NCBI GenBank assembly: GCA_028877205.1
Contig: JAPPHY010000002.1
Span: 123,351-165,741, forward strand
Source of the DNA: Chloroflexota bacterium
GTDB taxonomy: Bacteria > Chloroflexota > Dehalococcoidia > Lucifugimonadales > UBA2985
Length of the DNA: 42,391 nucleotides
Reading direction: 5' to 3'
Both the position numbers and the translations under genes were made by a program. Positions 2,141 to 32,083 of the stretch are shown here, one piece after another (the first letter of the stretch is position 1; the number at the start of each line of letters is the position of its first letter). A model generated the notes under the pieces. The model worked only from the letters and a program-made list of their open reading frames with translations. It was not told where the DNA came from and did not search any database.

Positions 2141-2216
2141 GCCCCAGTAGCTCAGAGGATAGAGCGGCTGCCTTCTAAGCAGCGGGTCGCGGGTTCGAAT
2201 CCTGCCTGGGGTACCA
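2141..2216 (+). tRNA. tRNA-Arg (anticodon TCT)
   Basis: A complete cloverleaf of 76 bases. The acceptor arm GCCCCAG pairs with CTGGGGT (a terminal G-U), the anticodon loop carries TCT (CTTCTAA), the T loop is GGTTCGAATCC, and the CCA end is encoded. It is the first of five tRNA genes on the same strand. Confidence 0.96.
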
Positions 2217-2392
2217 ACCAACGATTCCTGTAATCTCGGCGCGTGAGACCAACCCCCTACAAATCCGCGCTGATTTGTGGCACAATTATTGGGCTGGAAC
2301 CAGCTTGGAGCATGCACGGTCGTAGGCAGATTCGATAGCGGGTTGCGAACGATGCTGTGTGACGCTCCGGCGGGTTCCGTCATCGGCAGTGC

Positions 2393-2469
2393 AGGAGTGT
2401 AGCTCAGTTGGCTAGAGCAGCGGTCTCCAAAACCGCAGGTCGGGGGTTCGAGTCCTCCCACTCCTGCCA
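2393..2469 (+). tRNA. tRNA-Trp (anticodon CCA)
   Basis: A complete cloverleaf of 77 bases. The acceptor AGGAGTG pairs with CACTCCT, the D arm is GCTCAGTTGGCTAGAGC, the anticodon loop is CTCCAAA with anticodon CCA, the T loop is GGTTCGAGTCC, and the discriminator G and CCA are encoded. The A1-U72 pair and discriminator G are typical of bacterial tRNA-Trp. Confidence 0.96.
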
Positions 2470-2488
2470 AACCCCAAGCGGGCGCTGT

Positions 2489-2575
2489 GCCGAGGTGGTG
2501 GAATTGGTAGACACGCGGTCTTGAGGGGGCCGTGGGTGCAAACCCGTAGGAGTTCAAATCTCCTCCTCGGCACCA
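2489..2575 (+). tRNA. tRNA-Leu (anticodon GAG)
   Basis: An 87-base class II tRNA. The acceptor GCCGAGG pairs with CCTCGGC, the anticodon stem CGGTC/GGCCG encloses the loop TTGAGGG with anticodon GAG, and a long variable arm follows. The T loop is AGTTCAAATCT and ACCA is encoded. One of two leucine isoacceptors in the cluster. Confidence 0.95.
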
Positions 2576-2597
2576 GAAACGTGGTAGAATGGTTTGG

Positions 2598-2673
2598 GGC
2601 GACGTAGCCAAGTGGTTAAGGCGGAGCTCTGCAAAAGCTCTATTCGGCGGTTCGAATCCGCCCGTCGCCTCCA
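2598..2673 (+). tRNA. tRNA-Cys (anticodon GCA)
   Basis: A complete cloverleaf of 76 bases. The acceptor GGCGACG pairs with CGTCGCC, the anticodon stem GAGCT/AGCTC encloses CTGCAAA with anticodon GCA, and the discriminator is T, the known cysteine identity base. CCA is encoded. TAGAAT at 2585-2590 is too close to the tRNA to be a sure promoter. Confidence 0.96.
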
Positions 2674-2738
2674 AACACCCCATCGTTGAGCAGGCGGAAT
2701 CAGGCCAGTCACTGCTCACGCATACCACCCTCCACTCT

Positions 2739-2822
2739 GCCCAGGTGGCGAAAGGGTAGACGCGGCGGACTTAAAATCCGCTCCCCGATAAGGGGGTGTG
2801 GGTTCGAATCCCTCCCTGGGCA
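2739..2822 (+). tRNA. tRNA-Leu (anticodon TAA), no encoded CCA
   Basis: A class II tRNA with acceptor GCCCAGG pairing with CCTGGGC, anticodon stem GCGGA/TCCGC enclosing CTTAAAA (anticodon TAA), a long variable arm and T loop GGTTCGAATCC. After discriminator A2822 the sequence is CAACAC, so unlike its four neighbours CCA must be added after transcription. The next ORF starts only 10 bases downstream. Confidence 0.95.
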
Positions 2823-2832
2823 CAACACAACG

Positions 2833-5842: not shown

Positions 5843-6519
5843 TGGGTGCGGTGTACGGCTTGTCCAACACGCTCATGCGTGGAGCGCTTCGCATCTTCGG
5901 CGACTGGAAGGTTGAAGGCCGGGAGAACGTGCCGCCAATGGGCCCGCTCATCATCGTGTCCAACCACCAGAGCAACATGGACCCGCCCATACTGGCTGCC
6001 AGTATTCCCAGGAAGATTACCTTCATGGCCAAGCGGGGCCTGTTTCGAAACCCGGTTGCCTCGCAGTTCTTCAAGGCCTATGGCGCGTTTCCGCTCAACG
6101 AGAGCGGCAACGATCTGGGCGCAATACAACGCAGTGTGCGATTGCTGGAGCGGGACGGCGCGCTGGGCATCTTCCCTGAAGGTACAAGGAGCCCCGGGGG
6201 CATGCGCAAGGCCATTCCGGGCATTTCGCTGATTGCCCTCAGATCCGGTGCGCCGATCCTTCCCGTGGGGATCGTGGGTACTGAGGTCATCGGCCCGCCG
6301 TGGCAGGTGGCGGTGCCCAAGGGCTCGTTCACCATCAGGATCGGGCAGCCCTTCACGGTGCCTCAAATGGAGGGGAACATCGTGCGGGGGCAGCTCGAAG
6401 CAATAACGACGATGATTATGGAACGCGTGGCGGCCCTGTTGCCGGAGAGCTACCGCGGTGCGTATGAGCCGGTCAGAAGCGGAGTTGCGTCGCCGGAACG
6501 GGCCGGCGGGAGCGAGTAG
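5842..6519 (+). CDS. plsC: 1-acyl-sn-glycerol-3-phosphate acyltransferase
   Basis: Transfers the second acyl chain to lysophosphatidic acid at the inner membrane face. The 225-residue protein shows the LPLAT motifs in order: NHQSNMDP (the catalytic H-X4-D), FMAKRGLFRNPV, the acceptor-binding FPEGTRSPGG and the PVGIVGTE block. It starts on the last base of the cmk stop and ends 14 bases before glmS. Shared placement with fabI and glmS gives a stretch devoted to envelope building. Confidence 0.9.
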   Translation: MGAVYGLSNTLMRGALRIFGDWKVEGRENVPPMGPLIIVSNHQSNMDPPILAASIPRKITFMAKRGLFRNPVASQFFKAYGAFPLNESGNDLGAIQRSVRLLERDGALGIFPEGTRSPGGMRKAIPGISLIALRSGAPILPVGIVGTEVIGPPWQVAVPKGSFTIRIGQPFTVPQMEGNIVRGQLEAITTMIMERVAALLPESYRGAYEPVRSGVASPERAGGSE

Positions 6520-6533
6520 AAGGATTACGGGCC

Positions 6534-8378
6534 TTGTGTGGCATCATCGGATACGCAGGACGCAGGGAGGCGGCGCCAGTTCTGCTGGAGGGCCTGGCCA
6601 ACCTGGAGAACAGGGGTTACGATAGCGCCGGAATCGCCGTGCTTTCTTCCGGAGGCTCCGTCGCTGTGCGTAAGGCTTCCGGGAAGCTGGAGAGCCTTGT
6701 CAGCTCGCTGAACGGCTCTCTGCCGGAGGGCAGGGTGGGCGTCGGACACACGCGCTGGGCCACCCACGGCAAGGCCAGCCTGTCCAACGCGCACCCGCAC
6801 CTGGACTGCGGCGACAACGTCATCGTGGTCCACAACGGCATCGTCGAGAACTACATCGAGCTCAGGGAGGAGCTCATCGCCCAAGGCCACACCTTCGCCT
6901 CCGAGACGGACAGCGAGGTGCTTCCGCACCTGGTTGAGAGCTTCCTGAACAACGGCGCCACGCCCGAGGAGGCGGTGCGCAGGACTGCAAAGCTGCTCAA
7001 GGGCGCCCAGGCGGTGGCAGTGGCGTTGAAGCGCGAGCCGGAGAGGGTGATGGCTTTCCGGGTCGGGAATGCCGGGGGCATCGCAGTCGGCTACGGGGAC
7101 GGTGAGATGCTGCTGGCCAGCGACCTGCCGGCCATCATACCCCACACGCAGCGCGTGGCCTTCCTGTCGGCGGGCGAGATGGTGTCGGTGACGTCGGACG
7201 GGGCGTCCTACTCCACGCTCGACGGCGCTGAGCTCTGCAAGTCGCCACAGGTTCTGCCGTACGACCCCGTGTCGGTGGCGAAGAACGGCTACAGTCACTT
7301 CATTCTGAAGGAGATCCAGGAGCAGCCCCAGGCCGCCATCGCAACGCTGCGCGGCCGCGTCTCGTTTGATCCCTGGGACGTCGAGCTGGACGGCATCAAC
7401 CTGACGGACGACGACCTCCGCGGCATTGACCGCGTGATTTTCGTGGCAATGGGCACCAGCTACCATGCGGCGATGATTGGCCGGCACATGATGGAGCGGC
7501 TGGCGGGAATCCCGTCGGAGGCCGAGAACGCATCCGAGTTCCGGTACAGGGACCCGATACTGGACTCCCGTACGCTGGTCGTGTCCGTAGGCCAGTCCGG
7601 CGAGACGGCGGACACCCTGTCGGCGATGGAGGAGGCGTCGCGCAAGGGGGCGCGCCTCATCACGGTCTGCAACGCGGAGGGGAGCGGCGCCACGCGCATG
7701 GCGGAGGGCTGCGTCTACCTGCGATGCGGGCCGGAGATAGGGGTGGCGTCGACCAAGACCTTCACGTGCTCGCTGGAGGCGCTCTACATCCTGGCTGCCT
7801 ACGTTGGGAGGCGCCGGGGCTACCTGCCGCAGGAAGATATGGGCGACGTGTTGGAAGACCTGGCGAGGCTGCCCGACCTGCTCGGAGGCCTGGTGTCCCG
7901 GCATGAGGAGGCGGAGGCGCTCGCCGAGCTCTATCACGACAGGCCGCACTTCATGTACCTGGGCCGCGGCCCAAACTACGCTGTCGCCATGGAGGGCGCG
8001 CTCAAGCTGAAGGAGATGGCCTACGTCCACGCGGAGGGATGCCCCGCCGGAGAGATGAAGCACGGCCCCATTGCCCTTGTCGACGAGACGATGCCCATCG
8101 TTGCCATAGCCCCCGACGACGGCCTGAGAGACAAGATGCTGAACAGCATCTTCGAAGTGAAGGCCAGGGGCGGCACGGTCATCGCCGTCGCGACCGAGGG
8201 GGACGAGGAGATGGCGGACGTGGCCGACCACGTGCTGTACATTCCCCAGCTTTCGCCTCTGCTCACGTGCATACTTGCCAGTGTGCCCCTGCAGCTGCTG
8301 GCCTATCACATCGCCGTCAAGCGCGGCTGCGACGTGGACCAACCCAGGAACCTGGCGAAGACCGTAACGGTCGAGTGA
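6534..8378 (+). CDS. glmS: Glutamine-fructose-6-phosphate aminotransferase (isomerizing)
   Basis: Makes glucosamine-6-phosphate from fructose-6-phosphate and glutamine, the entry to amino-sugar and peptidoglycan synthesis. The TTG at 6534 is the true start because the second residue must be the catalytic Cys (M-CGIIGYAGRREAAPVLLEGL) exposed after Met removal. AAGGA lies 9 bases upstream. Class II amidotransferase residues include HTRWATHG and HNGIVENY. Two SIS domains follow (about 290-420 and 460-600), with SQSGETADT and the STKTFT loop, and the protein ends in the conserved KTVTVE. The length of 614 residues is standard. No glmS ribozyme is visible in the 14-base gap upstream. Confidence 0.97.
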   Translation: MCGIIGYAGRREAAPVLLEGLANLENRGYDSAGIAVLSSGGSVAVRKASGKLESLVSSLNGSLPEGRVGVGHTRWATHGKASLSNAHPHLDCGDNVIVVHNGIVENYIELREELIAQGHTFASETDSEVLPHLVESFLNNGATPEEAVRRTAKLLKGAQAVAVALKREPERVMAFRVGNAGGIAVGYGDGEMLLASDLPAIIPHTQRVAFLSAGEMVSVTSDGASYSTLDGAELCKSPQVLPYDPVSVAKNGYSHFILKEIQEQPQAAIATLRGRVSFDPWDVELDGINLTDDDLRGIDRVIFVAMGTSYHAAMIGRHMMERLAGIPSEAENASEFRYRDPILDSRTLVVSVGQSGETADTLSAMEEASRKGARLITVCNAEGSGATRMAEGCVYLRCGPEIGVASTKTFTCSLEALYILAAYVGRRRGYLPQEDMGDVLEDLARLPDLLGGLVSRHEEAEALAELYHDRPHFMYLGRGPNYAVAMEGALKLKEMAYVHAEGCPAGEMKHGPIALVDETMPIVAIAPDDGLRDKMLNSIFEVKARGGTVIAVATEGDEEMADVADHVLYIPQLSPLLTCILASVPLQLLAYHIAVKRGCDVDQPRNLAKTVTVE

Positions 8379-26518: not shown

Positions 26519-26756
26519 CGTGCTCTCCTTCTGTCCGAGTATCCACTGCATTCTACAATAATCTCAGCAACCGGCGTGAGATGGGTTATTCGACAGCCCG
26601 CAAAGAGGAAGACCGACTGCGGTCGCAGCAGGGAAATCTCTCGTATAGCCAAAGAAGCGAGTTCGAAGTAGAGTACGCTTGGGCGCGCCTCCTGGCATGT
26701 CTTTTTGCATCCATTCATGGCGCCGATGGAATACTGAGCTAAACCGGAGAGCCGAC

Positions 26757-27677
26757 ATGAGCAATGTCTTCGACGTGGTCATCATAGGCGGTGGCACAAC
26801 CGGGCTGAGCGCCTGCATCTACACCCTTCGATACGGCCTGAGCACATTGCTCGTTGAGGGCACGGTCTTCGGCGGGCAGATCATCAACGCCGACACCATC
26901 GAGAACTTCCCGGGCTTTCCGCAGGGAATCAAGGGGCCGGACCTGGTAGCCGCCCTCCAGGAGCAGGCGTCAGACCTCGGCGTGGAGTACGGTTTCGGCG
27001 AGGTGCAGTCGCTAGACGTCCAGGCTCAGCCCATGTCGATTCGCACCGAAGGCGATGAGTTCCTGGCAAGAACCGTCATCATCGCGACCGGCGGCGAGCG
27101 CAACAGGCTGGGAATACCCGGCGAAGATGAGTTCGAAGGGCGCGGCGTCTCCACTTGTGCCACGTGCGACGGCTACTTCTTCGCAGACAGCGAGGTGGCG
27201 GTAGTCGGAGGAGGCGACACCGCGCTCGACGAGGCCCTGTACCTGACCGAGATGTGCAGCAGGGTCACGCTGGTGCACAGGGGAGATCGACTCACGGGCA
27301 GCAGAATTCTCCAAGACCGCGCCCTCCGCAACCCCAAGCTGGACGTGCGATATGGCACGGTGGTTGAGTCGATTGTCGGTGAGGATGTCGTTCAGGGCGT
27401 CGTGCTGCGCGACGTGGGGACAGGTGAGGCGACAGAATTCTCGATGGCGGGGGTGTTCGTATGCGTTGGGTATCACCCAAACACCCACGCGTTTTTGGGC
27501 ACGATTCCCATGGATGACGGAGGTCACATAAGGGTCGACCTGAAGATGGCCACGGAAGTCCCGGGGGTGTTCGCCGCAGGAGATTGCCGCTGGCACTCGG
27601 CGCGCCAGTTGGCCAGCGGCGCAGGTGACGGAGTTACTGCCGCTCTGTCCGCCTACGCCTACCTGTGCGGCGCGTGA
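26757..27677 (+). CDS. Thioredoxin reductase-like flavoprotein
   Basis: A 306-residue member of the low-molecular-weight TrxR family. The FAD-binding loop is VVIIGGGTTGLSACIYTLRYG, the redox-active pair is Cys134-Ala-Thr-Cys137 in CATCDGYFF, and the second nucleotide loop is VVGGGDTALDEALYLT. The C-terminal FAD block is VFAAGDCRWHSARQLASGAGDG. In standard TrxR the NADPH 2'-phosphate site reads HRRDxFRA. Here it is HRGDRLTG, so cofactor preference may differ. A CCGGAGAG ribosome site precedes the ATG at 26757. No thioredoxin gene is adjacent. The next genes encode the UGSC selenoprotein pair, a plausible redox partner. Confidence 0.9.
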   Translation: MSNVFDVVIIGGGTTGLSACIYTLRYGLSTLLVEGTVFGGQIINADTIENFPGFPQGIKGPDLVAALQEQASDLGVEYGFGEVQSLDVQAQPMSIRTEGDEFLARTVIIATGGERNRLGIPGEDEFEGRGVSTCATCDGYFFADSEVAVVGGGDTALDEALYLTEMCSRVTLVHRGDRLTGSRILQDRALRNPKLDVRYGTVVESIVGEDVVQGVVLRDVGTGEATEFSMAGVFVCVGYHPNTHAFLGTIPMDDGGHIRVDLKMATEVPGVFAAGDCRWHSARQLASGAGDGVTAALSAYAYLCGA

Positions 27678-27725: not shown

Positions 27726-27775
27726 CAAGCCAGTCCGCCGTGGTTAGTCGAAAATACCTTCCGCAGGAGGGTCTG

Positions 27776-28846
27776 GTGACTACAAAGGCACTTCAGTCAG
27801 CTCAGTTCGAAGTGGATAGCGTCCATGACGCTATAGAGTTCTACTACGAAAAGGGCTGGACGGACGGCCTGCCTGTTGTTCCCCCGACCGAGGAGAAGGT
27901 CTGGGCGTTCCTTGACGCGGCGGGACTCGAGCCCGACGCTGTCATCGGCTCGTACGAAACGCGAAAGCGCGTGGTGACCGCCGAGAAGGTCGCCATCAAT
28001 TCGGTGATGGCGGGCTGCCTCCCCGAGTACTTCCCGGTGGTGCTTGCCATCATGGAACCGATACTCGACCCGCGATTCAATCTCCACGTCCCCAACTCCA
28101 CGACCGGCGGGGCCGCGATCGGGTTCATCGTGAACGGCCCGATTCGGGACAGGCTTGGCATGAACTACCGCGGCAACGTGCTTGGCCCCGGCAATCGCGC
28201 CAACTCCACTATCGGCCGGGCGGTGAGGCTCTGCCAGATCAACATCCTCGGCTCGCTGGCGGGCGCTGGAACGGAGGACCCGCTCGGCCGCCCGGTATTC
28301 GACAGGGCGACCGTCGGACAGCCGGGCAAGTATGCCGGCTACCACATCGTCGAAAACGAGGACGACTACCCGACGCTGCTCCCGGTACATGTTGAGCGGG
28401 GGTTCAGCAGGGACCAGAGCGCCGTGACCGTGTTCTCCACGGGCGGCCACGTGCAGATTTCGGCCCACTCCGAGGGCTCGGCGCAGAAGATAGCCGACAC
28501 GGTCGCCAGGCACCTTGTAGGCAGCGGAAGACTGGTCGCGTCCGGAGGCTACTGCGTAATCGTGATTCCGGCGGAGAACGCCGGGTACCTCGTCAAGGAC
28601 GGCTGGTCCAAGGCCGACTTTCGGCAAGCGGTGCACGAGGGGACCAGGCGCACGGCCGAGTCGCTGGCGGCGCAGGGCTGGCCGGTTCGAGGAGGAGGCT
28701 CGTCGGATGCCGGCGAGCGGATGCTGGCGGTAACCGGAAGCGCCGACGACATCTATGTTGTGACAGCGGGCGGCCCGGCGGGAGGATTCATTCACTATAT
28801 GCTGCCGTACGGCGGATCGGTCATCACGTGCGAGATCAGGTCATAG
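27776..28846 (+). CDS. Conserved protein of the DGLPVVPPT type, partner of the UGSC selenoprotein
   Basis: A 356-residue soluble protein. It opens with VHDAIEFYYEKGWTDGLPVVPPTEEKV and has EKVAINSVMAGCLPEYFPVVLAIMEPILD, GFIVNGPIRDRLGMNYRGNVLGPGNRANSTIGRAVRLC and QPGKYAGYHIVENEDDYPTLLPVHVERGF. I know this pattern from uncharacterised environmental proteins that tend to sit beside UGSC-family genes. No catalytic function is known. The frame is open to 27740, but GTG 27776 has AGGAGG five bases upstream and is chosen. The gene ends 64 bases before the selenoprotein ATG. Confidence 0.85.
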   Translation: MTTKALQSAQFEVDSVHDAIEFYYEKGWTDGLPVVPPTEEKVWAFLDAAGLEPDAVIGSYETRKRVVTAEKVAINSVMAGCLPEYFPVVLAIMEPILDPRFNLHVPNSTTGGAAIGFIVNGPIRDRLGMNYRGNVLGPGNRANSTIGRAVRLCQINILGSLAGAGTEDPLGRPVFDRATVGQPGKYAGYHIVENEDDYPTLLPVHVERGFSRDQSAVTVFSTGGHVQISAHSEGSAQKIADTVARHLVGSGRLVASGGYCVIVIPAENAGYLVKDGWSKADFRQAVHEGTRRTAESLAAQGWPVRGGGSSDAGERMLAVTGSADDIYVVTAGGPAGGFIHYMLPYGGSVITCEIRS

Positions 28847-28865
28847 GCAGAGAACCTAAGCCTAA

Positions 28866-28877
28866 CTTGGATCCAAG
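28866..28877. repeat. 12-bp perfect palindrome between the operon genes
   Basis: CTTGGATCCAAG reads identically on both strands. It lies 34 bases before the selenoprotein start. It could be an operator or chance. Confidence 0.35.
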
Positions 28878-28910
28878 AGTGTTGCAGGAGTCCAGTGGAA
28901 GGAGGACGAG

Positions 28911-29456
28911 ATGGTTGTAGCAGAGCGGTTGCGAGTACTCGATCCCACGTCGGAGCCGGTCATAGAGGCCGGATCGAAGGCTGCCAGAGTGGACACCCTT
29001 GACGGGAAGGTGGTTGGACTCTTCAACAATCAGAAGCTCAACGCGCCTCAGCTGCTCGAGATGGTTGGGGAGGTCCTCGGCGAACGGTACAATCTCAAGG
29101 GAATCGTTCGATCGACGTACAGCTCCAGTCACCACCACACCTGGGATGAGTGGGTGGAGAAGGGGGCGAAGGAGTGTGACGTCGCGATCCTCACCCACGG
29201 TGACTGAGGGTCCTGCAGTTCGAGCGGTCTGCTCAACAGCATAGAAATCGAGAAGCACGGAATACCTGCCATGCTGATTGCCACAGATGCCTTCATAAGC
29301 ACCTGCAAGGGTATGGCGCGCGTCGGTGGGATCCCGGACATGGAGTTCGCCGTGGTGCCTCACCCGGTCGGGAGCCTTCCACCTGAGGTGCTGATGGAAC
29401 GGGCCAGGTCGGCAGCGGACCAGTTTGTGAGGATCATCAGCGAAGGTCAGGACTAG
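28911..29456 (+). CDS. UGSC-family selenoprotein (in-frame TGA = selenocysteine 99)
   Basis: Two short open frames, 28911-29207 and the frame from 29208 to 29456, are in register and separated by one TGA at 29205-29207. Read through, they give a 181-residue protein whose centre is ILTHGD-U-GSCSSSGLLNS, the U-G-S-C motif that names the UGSC family. Sec99 and Cys102 form a UxxC redox pair. The part after TGA has normal coding (IEIEKHGIPAMLIATDAFISTCKGMARVGGIPDMEFAVVPHP). TGA stops cmk, moxR and others here, so it is not globally reassigned. A SECIS-like hairpin follows directly. An AAGGAGG ribosome site precedes the ATG. The protein's biochemical role is unknown. Standard gene callers would split or truncate it. 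Confidence 0.92.
29214..29241 (+). promoter_or_regulatory. Bacterial SECIS element
   Basis: Starting 6 bases after the TGA, the RNA can fold as UGC-A-GUU-[C]-GAGC, loop GGUCU (29226-29230), GCUC-AAC-A-GCA. That is ten Watson-Crick pairs, one A-A mismatch and one bulged C. The loop is 18 bases from the UGA, within the known window. GGUCU with its G-U is the SelB-recognised sequence of the E. coli fdhF SECIS. The bulged base is C rather than U. Confidence 0.85.
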
Positions 29457-29752
29457 CCGGCTGCGCTCTGATGCGCTCAGCCGAGCACGATTGCAGCCAG
29501 TGACCGGCGCCCATACCGGGTGCTTGACCCGGGTACTCGCGCGCCGTTGAACGCGACGGGTGTGCACTTAGCCGCCAGAAGTCCCAGTCTGGTGCACAGC
29601 TGCGCAGCCTCACCAACACTGCCCCAACACTAGTACGCGGGCAATGTTGGTCTAAGCCGCAAGCTCTCGATCAAGTGCGTGTTCTGTACTAGGCTGAGAT
29701 TTCCGGCTAAACTCATGGGGGCATCCGGAACGACTCGCAAGGAGGCATACCG
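29457..29752. other. Intergenic region before the molybdenum hydroxylase gene
   Basis: About 296 bases without a coding frame I trust. It holds an imperfect hairpin near 29510-29533 (ACCGGGT pairing with ACCCGGGT with a bulged G) and an inverted repeat CCAACA/TGTTGG near 29622-29653. Either may end the selenoprotein transcript. Neither has a T tract. Confidence 0.4.
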
Positions 29753-32083
29753 ATGACTGTAGAGACTGAAAAAGGCCTTGCAGAACCGGCCCAGTTTCGA
29801 ATAGTAGGCACCAGGGCTCCACGACTGGACGGCCTGGAGAAGGTGACCGGCGCTGCCAGGTTCGGAGCCGACATTCACTTGCCCGGTATGCTTCATGGCA
29901 AGATGCTCACAAGTCCTTACGCCCATGCTCGCATTCTCTCGATAGACACAAGTGAAGCGGAGGCCGTTCCGGGCGTAAAGGCCGTGATGACGGCCAGGGA
30001 TTTTTCAATCTTCGAACGGCAGCCGGACGTAGATTTCGTCGCGGAGCAGTTCCGCGGCGCCAGGATCATGGCCGAACACTTCATGGCTCGCGACAAGGCC
30101 CTCTACCGAGGCCATCCGGTGGCCGCCATTGCAGCAACCAGCCCTCACGTAGCTGAGGAAGCCGCAAAGCTGATCCGTGTGGAGTACGAGGTGCTGCCAG
30201 CCGTCCTCACAATAGAGGACGCCCTCAAGGACGACGCCCCTCTTGTCCACGACAGCCTTACCACCGTAACGCGCGGCCCCGATGGCCGCGAGGTCTCGGA
30301 TACAAAATCGAACGTGGCAAGCCACGCGCAGCTCAGGCGAGGTGACGTGGAGGCCGGCTTCAGGGAGGCGGAGGTCATCGTGGAGCGTGAGTTCTCGACT
30401 CAGCCGGTCCACCCCGGCTACATCGAGCCGTTCGCAACCGCGGCACAGTGGAACCCGGACGGCCACGTGACTGTTTGGACCACCACCCAGGGCACCTTTG
30501 ACGTTCGCGAGGGCACCGCCTCCATCCTCGGCATTCCCGAGTCGATGCTGAAAGTGATCGCGATGGAGTGCGGCGGAGGATTCGGGGGCAAGGGCCCGAA
30601 CACCAACCCCCTCAATCCGATGGCGGCTGTTCTCTCCAGGAAGAGCGGCCTGCCCGTCAAGATGGTCATGAGCCGCAAGGAGACCTTCGAGAGCACATGC
30701 CCCGCTTCGGCGGCCTACATCCGGCTGAAGATGGGGGCCGACCGGTCGGGGCGAATCACGGCCGCCGAGTACTACCTCGCCTACCAGGCAGGAGCGTTCC
30801 CGGGGTCGCCGGTGGGCGCGGGCGTGCAGAACGGCCTCGCGTCATACAAGATCGAGAATCTCCAGGTGGACGGTTACGACGTCGTCACGAACACCCAGAA
30901 GATGCAGAGCTACCGGGCGCCCGGACAGCCTCCTGCCACGTTTGCCGTGGAGAGTGTTGTAGACGAGTTGGCGGAGAAGCTGGGCATGGACCCCATGGAG
31001 TTCCGGTTGAGAAACACTGTGCAGGAAGGGGACCGGATGCCCAATGGTGTTCTCTATCCCCGAATCGCCTGCATGGAGATCATGGAAGCCATGAAGAACC
31101 ACCCCCATTACAGCGCGCCGCTCGGCGGCCCGAACCGGGGTCGAGGCGTGTCAGTGGCCGCCAGGGCCATAGGCGGCGAAGGAGCTACGCCTCACGTTGC
31201 AACCATCAGCGTCAATGCGAACGGCACCGTATCTCTCGTGACGGGCTCAAACGACCTGAGCGGCACGCGTACCACCGTGGCGATGCAGGCCGCTGAAGTG
31301 TTGGGATTGGACGCGACTGACGTGATATCCACAGTTGGCGATACCGAATCCGCCGGTTGGAGCGGCGTGGCCAACGGCAGCAAGATCACCTATTCGACGG
31401 GTCTGGCCGCCATCGCCGCCGCGGAGGAGGTCAAGATTCAGATGAAGGCTCGCGCGGCGCTGGTCTGGGAGGTGCAGCCGGAGGACGTGGAGTTCGTGAA
31501 TGGCGCCTTTGTGTGCACCAAGAATCCGGCCGACAGGCTGAGCTTCAAGGAGCTGGCGGGCAGGCTCATGCGCACGGGAGGCCCAATCACCTGCGCCGGA
31601 TACTCGTTCCCGACCGGGCCCGGCGGCGTGCTTTTCGGCGGCAACCTCGTGGACGTGGAGGTCGACCCAGAGACCGGCAAGGTCGACATCCTGCGCTTCA
31701 CCACCTTCATCGATGTGGGCAAGGCGGTCCACCCCAGCTTCGTGGAAGGACAGGCTCAGGGCTCGACGGCGCAGGGTGTCGGGTGGGCGCTCAGCGAGGA
31801 GTACTACTACACCGGAGACGGCGCGATTGCAAACTCCACCTTCCTGGACTACCGCATGCCGACAACACTGGATGTGCCCATGATCGATACGGTAATCGTG
31901 GAGGTGCCTAACCCTGGCCACCCGTTCGGACTGAGGGGGAGGGCGGGAGAGATCCCCATTGTTCCAGTCATCGGGGCGGTGGCCAACGCCGTGTCCAATG
32001 CGACCGGCGTACGCATGACCAGGGCGCCCATGAATCCAGGCACCATCGCTGAGGCACTGAGGGAGAGCGGGGCGGAGGTATAG
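29753..32083 (+). CDS. Xanthine dehydrogenase/aldehyde oxidase family molybdopterin-binding subunit
   Basis: A 776-residue large subunit of a molybdenum hydroxylase (CoxL/XdhA-like), which oxidises an aldehyde, purine or CO-type substrate at a Mo centre. Diagnostic blocks are RLDGLEKVTGAARFGADIHLPGMLHGKMLTSPYAHARI, ECGGGFGGKGPNTNP, SYRAPGQPPATFAVESVVDELAEKLGMDPMEFRLRNTV and the C-terminal LRGRAGEIPIVPVIGAVANAVSNATGVRMTRAPMNPGTI, whose GE carries the catalytic Glu. AAGGAGG precedes the ATG. No FAD- or [2Fe-2S]-subunit gene is adjacent, so partners must lie elsewhere. The substrate is not predictable. Confidence 0.92.
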   Translation: MTVETEKGLAEPAQFRIVGTRAPRLDGLEKVTGAARFGADIHLPGMLHGKMLTSPYAHARILSIDTSEAEAVPGVKAVMTARDFSIFERQPDVDFVAEQFRGARIMAEHFMARDKALYRGHPVAAIAATSPHVAEEAAKLIRVEYEVLPAVLTIEDALKDDAPLVHDSLTTVTRGPDGREVSDTKSNVASHAQLRRGDVEAGFREAEVIVEREFSTQPVHPGYIEPFATAAQWNPDGHVTVWTTTQGTFDVREGTASILGIPESMLKVIAMECGGGFGGKGPNTNPLNPMAAVLSRKSGLPVKMVMSRKETFESTCPASAAYIRLKMGADRSGRITAAEYYLAYQAGAFPGSPVGAGVQNGLASYKIENLQVDGYDVVTNTQKMQSYRAPGQPPATFAVESVVDELAEKLGMDPMEFRLRNTVQEGDRMPNGVLYPRIACMEIMEAMKNHPHYSAPLGGPNRGRGVSVAARAIGGEGATPHVATISVNANGTVSLVTGSNDLSGTRTTVAMQAAEVLGLDATDVISTVGDTESAGWSGVANGSKITYSTGLAAIAAAEEVKIQMKARAALVWEVQPEDVEFVNGAFVCTKNPADRLSFKELAGRLMRTGGPITCAGYSFPTGPGGVLFGGNLVDVEVDPETGKVDILRFTTFIDVGKAVHPSFVEGQAQGSTAQGVGWALSEEYYYTGDGAIANSTFLDYRMPTTLDVPMIDTVIVEVPNPGHPFGLRGRAGEIPIVPVIGAVANAVSNATGVRMTRAPMNPGTIAEALRESGAEV

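Follow-up and report, generated by a model that had tools for sequence, protein, structure and literature searches.

The window analysed here, a 42,391-nucleotide stretch of a Chloroflexota contig, contains three successive forward-strand genes that end with a selenoprotein gene of the UGSC family. This gene lies 64 nucleotides downstream of the gene for a conserved partner protein, which in turn begins 62 bases after a thioredoxin-disulfide reductase gene. The relevant features, with the basis of each assignment, are as follows.

26679..27677, + strand: thioredoxin-disulfide reductase gene (trxB) with a CATC motif, by its match to TIGR01292 (339.2 bits, just below the cut-off of 343.45)
27740..28846, + strand: partner protein gene, 368 aa, with the motifs TDGLPVVPP and MAGC, by co-occurrence with UGSC
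28900..28905, + strand: Shine-Dalgarno sequence AGGAGG of the UGSC gene, read from the sequence
28911..29456, + strand: UGSC-family selenoprotein gene, 181 aa with Sec99, by Pfam and NCBIfam profiles
29205..29207, + strand: in-frame TGA, selenocysteine codon of residue 99, by the TGA/Cys column of the homologues
29219..29237, + strand: bacterial SECIS stem-loop, by family covariation and consensus fold

The UGSC gene starts with an ATG at 28911, five nucleotides after its strong Shine-Dalgarno sequence, and ends with a TAG at 29454-29456, with one in-frame TGA between them. The initial annotation joined the two frames 28911-29207 and 29208-29456 into a single gene. Its coordinates are exact, and the Pfam UGSC profile matches across the TGA. 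The junction it described reads directly at residues 98-102 as D98-(TGA)-G-S-C102, placing selenocysteine at position 99 and a cysteine at position 102. Normal coding on both sides of the TGA, also proposed there, agrees with third-position GC, which is the same before and after the codon (0.74 versus 0.73) and close to the values of neighbouring genes (0.80 and 0.78). Because the GC-rich window holds 150 mechanical ORFs of at least 80 aa, the 83 open codons after the stop are weak proof alone, and the case is therefore built on homology. On the opposite strand, a 243-aa mechanical ORF (28836-29567, - strand) overlaps the UGSC gene from end to end and could lead gene-calling programs astray.

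The read-through protein matches Pfam PF24696 over residues 9-177 with 155.8 bits (E 1.5e-45, cut-off 25). Both the profile and the homologues continue past the TGA, which provides the downstream similarity expected of a genuine C-terminus. Against NCBIfam NF041046, the protein scores 118.4 bits, narrowly below the curated cut-off of 125, so the NCBI naming rule might miss it. It shares with the family the whole-length profile match, the D-U-G-S-C motif and a column that is mostly Sec with rare Cys forms, and there is no essential difference. The motif is followed by S-S-S-G-L-L-N in the window copy and by S-S-C-S-V-H-D in most members. This is the only UGSC copy in its own genome (G000, 2.0 Mb, 96% complete).

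The family was named in 2008 as 'UGSC-containing protein' in the GOS selenoproteome paper, where it ranks among the commonest selenoprotein families of aquatic metagenomes (PMC2398784). It is also represented in Pfam and NCBIfam. The word 'hidden', applied to the selenoprotein at the outset, thus fits the gene in the window and does not fit the family. Public records still contain split or truncated UGSC-type genes. On Paracoccus ferrooxidans plasmid pFER4 (L176), for example, UGSC appears as a pair of hypothetical proteins (6411-6698 and 6738-6980) that the annotation separates at the TGA, just as had been predicted for standard gene callers. No paper giving a function for UGSC was found in the literature searched. 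A search of genome contigs with the window protein alone as query found no relative, and no patterns could be seeded from the UGSC alignment because it varies too much; the partner alignment served instead.

Homologues show how the TGA column behaves. In a set of 71 UGSC copies from GTDB genomes, fetched through the neighbouring partner gene and independent of the phylum sample, the column holds TGA in 69 and Cys in two, the two residues that had been anticipated. Nearly all UGSC matches of the phylum sample hold exactly one TGA, at the same column in 20/20 aligned sequences, and plasmid records add four more Cys forms and two TGA forms. A Cys form, L080, is sister to the window protein in a tree of 96 sequences (support 100/96), on which the Cys label changes six times, at least five of them by well-supported branches. 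Recurrent switching between Sec and Cys at a single column is a classic hallmark of selenocysteine. The Sec99 and Cys102 columns are invariant across 46 sequences, and the two residues may form a redox pair, as first suggested.

The host genome carries the complete insertion machinery. Profile scores reach 344.7 bits for selB, 552 bits for selA and 366 bits for selD, which has its own in-frame TGA in C-A-G-U near its start, and a tRNA-Sec with anticodon TCA scores 70.3 bits. The check for selA, selB, selC and selD thus found all four in the same genome. Across the order sample, selA lies above the cut-off in 44/46 genomes with UGSC versus 39/52 genomes lacking it, and the two UGSC genomes below the cut-off are 81% (G322) and 88% (G353) complete.

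A SECIS element follows the TGA and emerges at the family level. Among 65 homologues, the RNA folds into a stem with a maximum of eight pairs, capped by a G-U-N loop 19 nt past the TGA, with 87.3% of cells paired and five pairs showing changes on both sides. The covariation score of 0.241 exceeds both that of shuffles (0.080) and those of slid registers, which do not rise above 0.101. In shape, the window copy agrees with the bacterial type, its loop lying 18-19 nt after the UGA and opening with G. Its core stem pairs 29222-29226 with 29230-29234 (GAGC/GCUC closed by a G-U) around the loop GUC at 29227-29229. Folded alone, the post-TGA RNA of the window is no more stable than shuffles, and the stem is visible only in the family alignment. 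A C-A mismatch occupies columns 17/31, where the other 64 sequences have C-G, and the window SECIS is among the weaker stems of the family. The native SelB of the host may make up for the mismatch and the G-U closing pair.

These observations bear on whether the TGA is a true stop, so that the gene would be a pseudogene cut short, an artefact of sequencing or the source of a protein of 98 residues. TGA does end ordinary genes of the window, such as 26679-27677, and the nearest sampled family members lack UGSC. However, the same TGA recurs in 69/71 homologues from many phyla, its column is exchanged for Cys, a covarying SECIS follows it and the genome holds the Sec machinery, which together make a true stop very improbable. 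Reading of the TGA as another amino acid such as Trp under a changed genetic code, which would also leave the frame open, is more improbable still, given that the window tRNA-Trp has the anticodon CCA, a neighbouring gene terminates in TGA, the single TCA tRNA found is tRNA-Sec and the alternative residue at the column is Cys rather than Trp. Judged from sequence, the product of the locus is almost certainly a UGSC selenoprotein that arises through the usual bacterial route of Sec insertion, in which SelB, tRNA-Sec and the stem-loop just past the UGA would insert Sec at residue 99.

The partner protein belongs to none of the families searched. It has no match in Pfam, even at E 10, none in NCBIfam and no relative by sequence among solved structures. 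Fold comparisons with Foldseek (best E 0.004, probability 0.23) and VIA (best Z 7.2 over 94 residues) are unconvincing and are no proof of a new fold. Its invariant residues include D42, G43, L44, P45, C93, R160 and E205. The N-terminal part of GrdB, the selenoprotein B of glycine, sarcosine and betaine reductase, was compared as a possible relative and showed no relation. Because the partner is unrelated to that part or to any Pfam family, it need not work as in the GrdB complex.

The partner and UGSC are nevertheless found together with great regularity. Among 301 genomes of the phylum, 31 carry both, each occurs alone in one and 268 carry neither (Fisher p 6e-40, with kinship among genomes uncorrected). 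For 60/69 UGSC matches in these genomes, a same-strand partner gene lies no more than 1 kb away, before UGSC at some loci and after it at others, and eight of the remaining nine belong to two many-copy genomes in which scoring covered just six candidates for the partner. Both genes share a reading frame in about half of the adjacent pairs, where chance would give a third, and direct reading of L040, L043 and L044 reveals UGSC running into the partner motif as a single protein, a read-through fusion. In the converse test, UGSC is present at 69/80 loci picked by the partner alone; it was not found near the partner at the other 11, several of them from Poribacteria. The Poribacteria loci L133, L140, L144, L146, L114 and L123 hold partner genes with no UGSC nearby; UGSC may be encoded elsewhere, or the partner may have a different associate there.

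The 2008 study noted UGSC fused to a conserved domain termed 'Unknown_1' (PMC2398784), and the fusions described here likewise join UGSC to a conserved extra domain. To judge by this shared arrangement, Unknown_1 is most likely the partner family. In the haloarchaeon Natrinema zhouii (L174, 6324-8020), a Cys-type UGSC adjoins the partner, and the pair has therefore crossed domains. Gene pairing and fusion make it probable that UGSC is the selenol subunit of a two-subunit enzyme whose other subunit is, in the window, encoded upstream.

Thioredoxin-related genes recur around the pair. The likely true start of the window trxB is the ATG at 26757. The gene also accompanies the pair in Arthrobacter, in the order trxB-trxA-partner-UGSC, and in Variovorax and Roseovarius. 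In the GTDB collection, it adjoins the pair at only 2/69 UGSC loci (L124 and L138), so trxB is regarded as a recurrent neighbour, and the idea that it is a constant component was dropped. A wider census of neighbours yields transporters, TctC, amidohydrolases and acyl-CoA dehydrogenases with no dominant pathway, and therefore no substrate is claimed. At other loci, transporters (tripartite tricarboxylate and others), amidohydrolases and genes linked to CoA give a hint that the substrate may be a small organic acid or a compound related to one. Arthrobacter (L172, 4737-5525) and Natrinema (L174, 3856-4323) both have a gene for phosphosulfolactate synthase close to their Cys-type pair, which may be another clue to the substrate.

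Profile comparison links UGSC to a characterised group of selenoenzymes. With hhalign, the UGSC profile aligns to the Sec domains of two GrdB-like proteins with E values of 7.8e-8 and 1.2e-6, Sec on Sec, and one of these domains itself reads U-G-S-C. In NCBIfam, weak matches over the motif region fall on GrdB, GrdF and PrdB, that to GrdB (TIGR01917) reaching 23.7 bits (E 2e-5) against a cut-off of 602.2. Like the Sec domains of GrdB (PF07355) and of the D-proline reductase PrdB, with which it aligns Sec on Sec, UGSC carries E-I-E-x-x-G-I-P and P-H-P-x-G after the selenocysteine. Unlike GrdB, it has no counterpart of the N-terminal part, and the host genome gives no match to PF07355 for a full-length GrdB. 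By alignment, UGSC is homologous to the C-terminal domain of GrdB.

Structural prediction gives UGSC an alpha/beta sandwich of flavodoxin/Rossmann-like type (pLDDT 87.5), placing Sec99 where the helix of residues 100-115 begins. The leading structural matches of the model are PurE, WrbA and similar folds (Z about 9-11), and there is no thioredoxin among the matches listed. This model differs from the thioredoxin-like fold that the 2008 paper supposed for UGSC (PMC2398784).

Taken together, the GrdB link, the predicted fold and the trxB neighbours suggest that UGSC is probably a thioredoxin-fed, GrdB-like selenol reductase that acts with its partner on a small molecule. The grd system uses thioredoxin-linked selenol chemistry, and the alpha/beta domain of UGSC corresponds to the Sec-bearing C-terminal domain of GrdB. 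By analogy, Sec99 would attack or reduce a small molecule bound jointly with the partner. Cys102 would then resolve the adduct on selenium by forming a selenenylsulfide, and the selenol would be restored by thioredoxin and the neighbouring thioredoxin reductase. Attack, resolution and recharge acting jointly in this way stand at about an even chance.

A different reading also takes UGSC as a selenoprotein and assigns it to the general thiol-disulfide oxidoreductases or peroxidases, thioredoxin-like as in the 2008 paper (PMC2398784), instead of to substrate-cleaving reductases. The U-x-x-C motif and the trxB or trxA genes adjoining some loci would suit such an enzyme. However, the predicted fold has the alternating strands and helices of the flavodoxin/Rossmann-like type, led by matches to PurE and WrbA, the homology is to GrdB, and a fixed large partner would be unusual for a general oxidoreductase, all of which make this reading rather unlikely. 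For the reductase reading in its broadest form, the balance tips slightly in favour. UGSC and its TDGLP/MAGC partner would then constitute a widespread, uncharacterised two-subunit selenoenzyme, in which a free-standing protein akin to the Sec domain of GrdB works with a partner of possibly new fold. It would be distributed over many bacterial phyla and, as Cys forms, some haloarchaea, and would cleave or reduce a small organic substrate.

As a selenoprotein, the UGSC gene is an ordinary find, because its family is known and abundant; its moderate interest lies in the pairing and the kinship to GrdB, which open its function to testing. The near-constant partner, the relation of the Sec domain to glycine reductase GrdB and the trxB gene ahead of the pair emerge from the comparison. 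With the first two, a family that had been a bare list entry becomes an enzyme open to experiment. Moreover, natural Cys pairs occur in culturable bacteria, such as Arthrobacter sp. ERGS1:01 (L172) and Roseovarius sp. THAF8 (L175), which makes testing feasible without selenocysteine expression.

Two further features of the window lie outside the gene pair. About 300 nt after the UGSC gene, a gene at 29753-32083 (+ strand) encodes a large molybdopterin subunit of the xanthine dehydrogenase/4-hydroxybenzoyl-CoA reductase type. Additionally, five tRNA genes (Arg, Trp, Leu, Cys and Leu) are clustered at 2141-2823 (+ strand).
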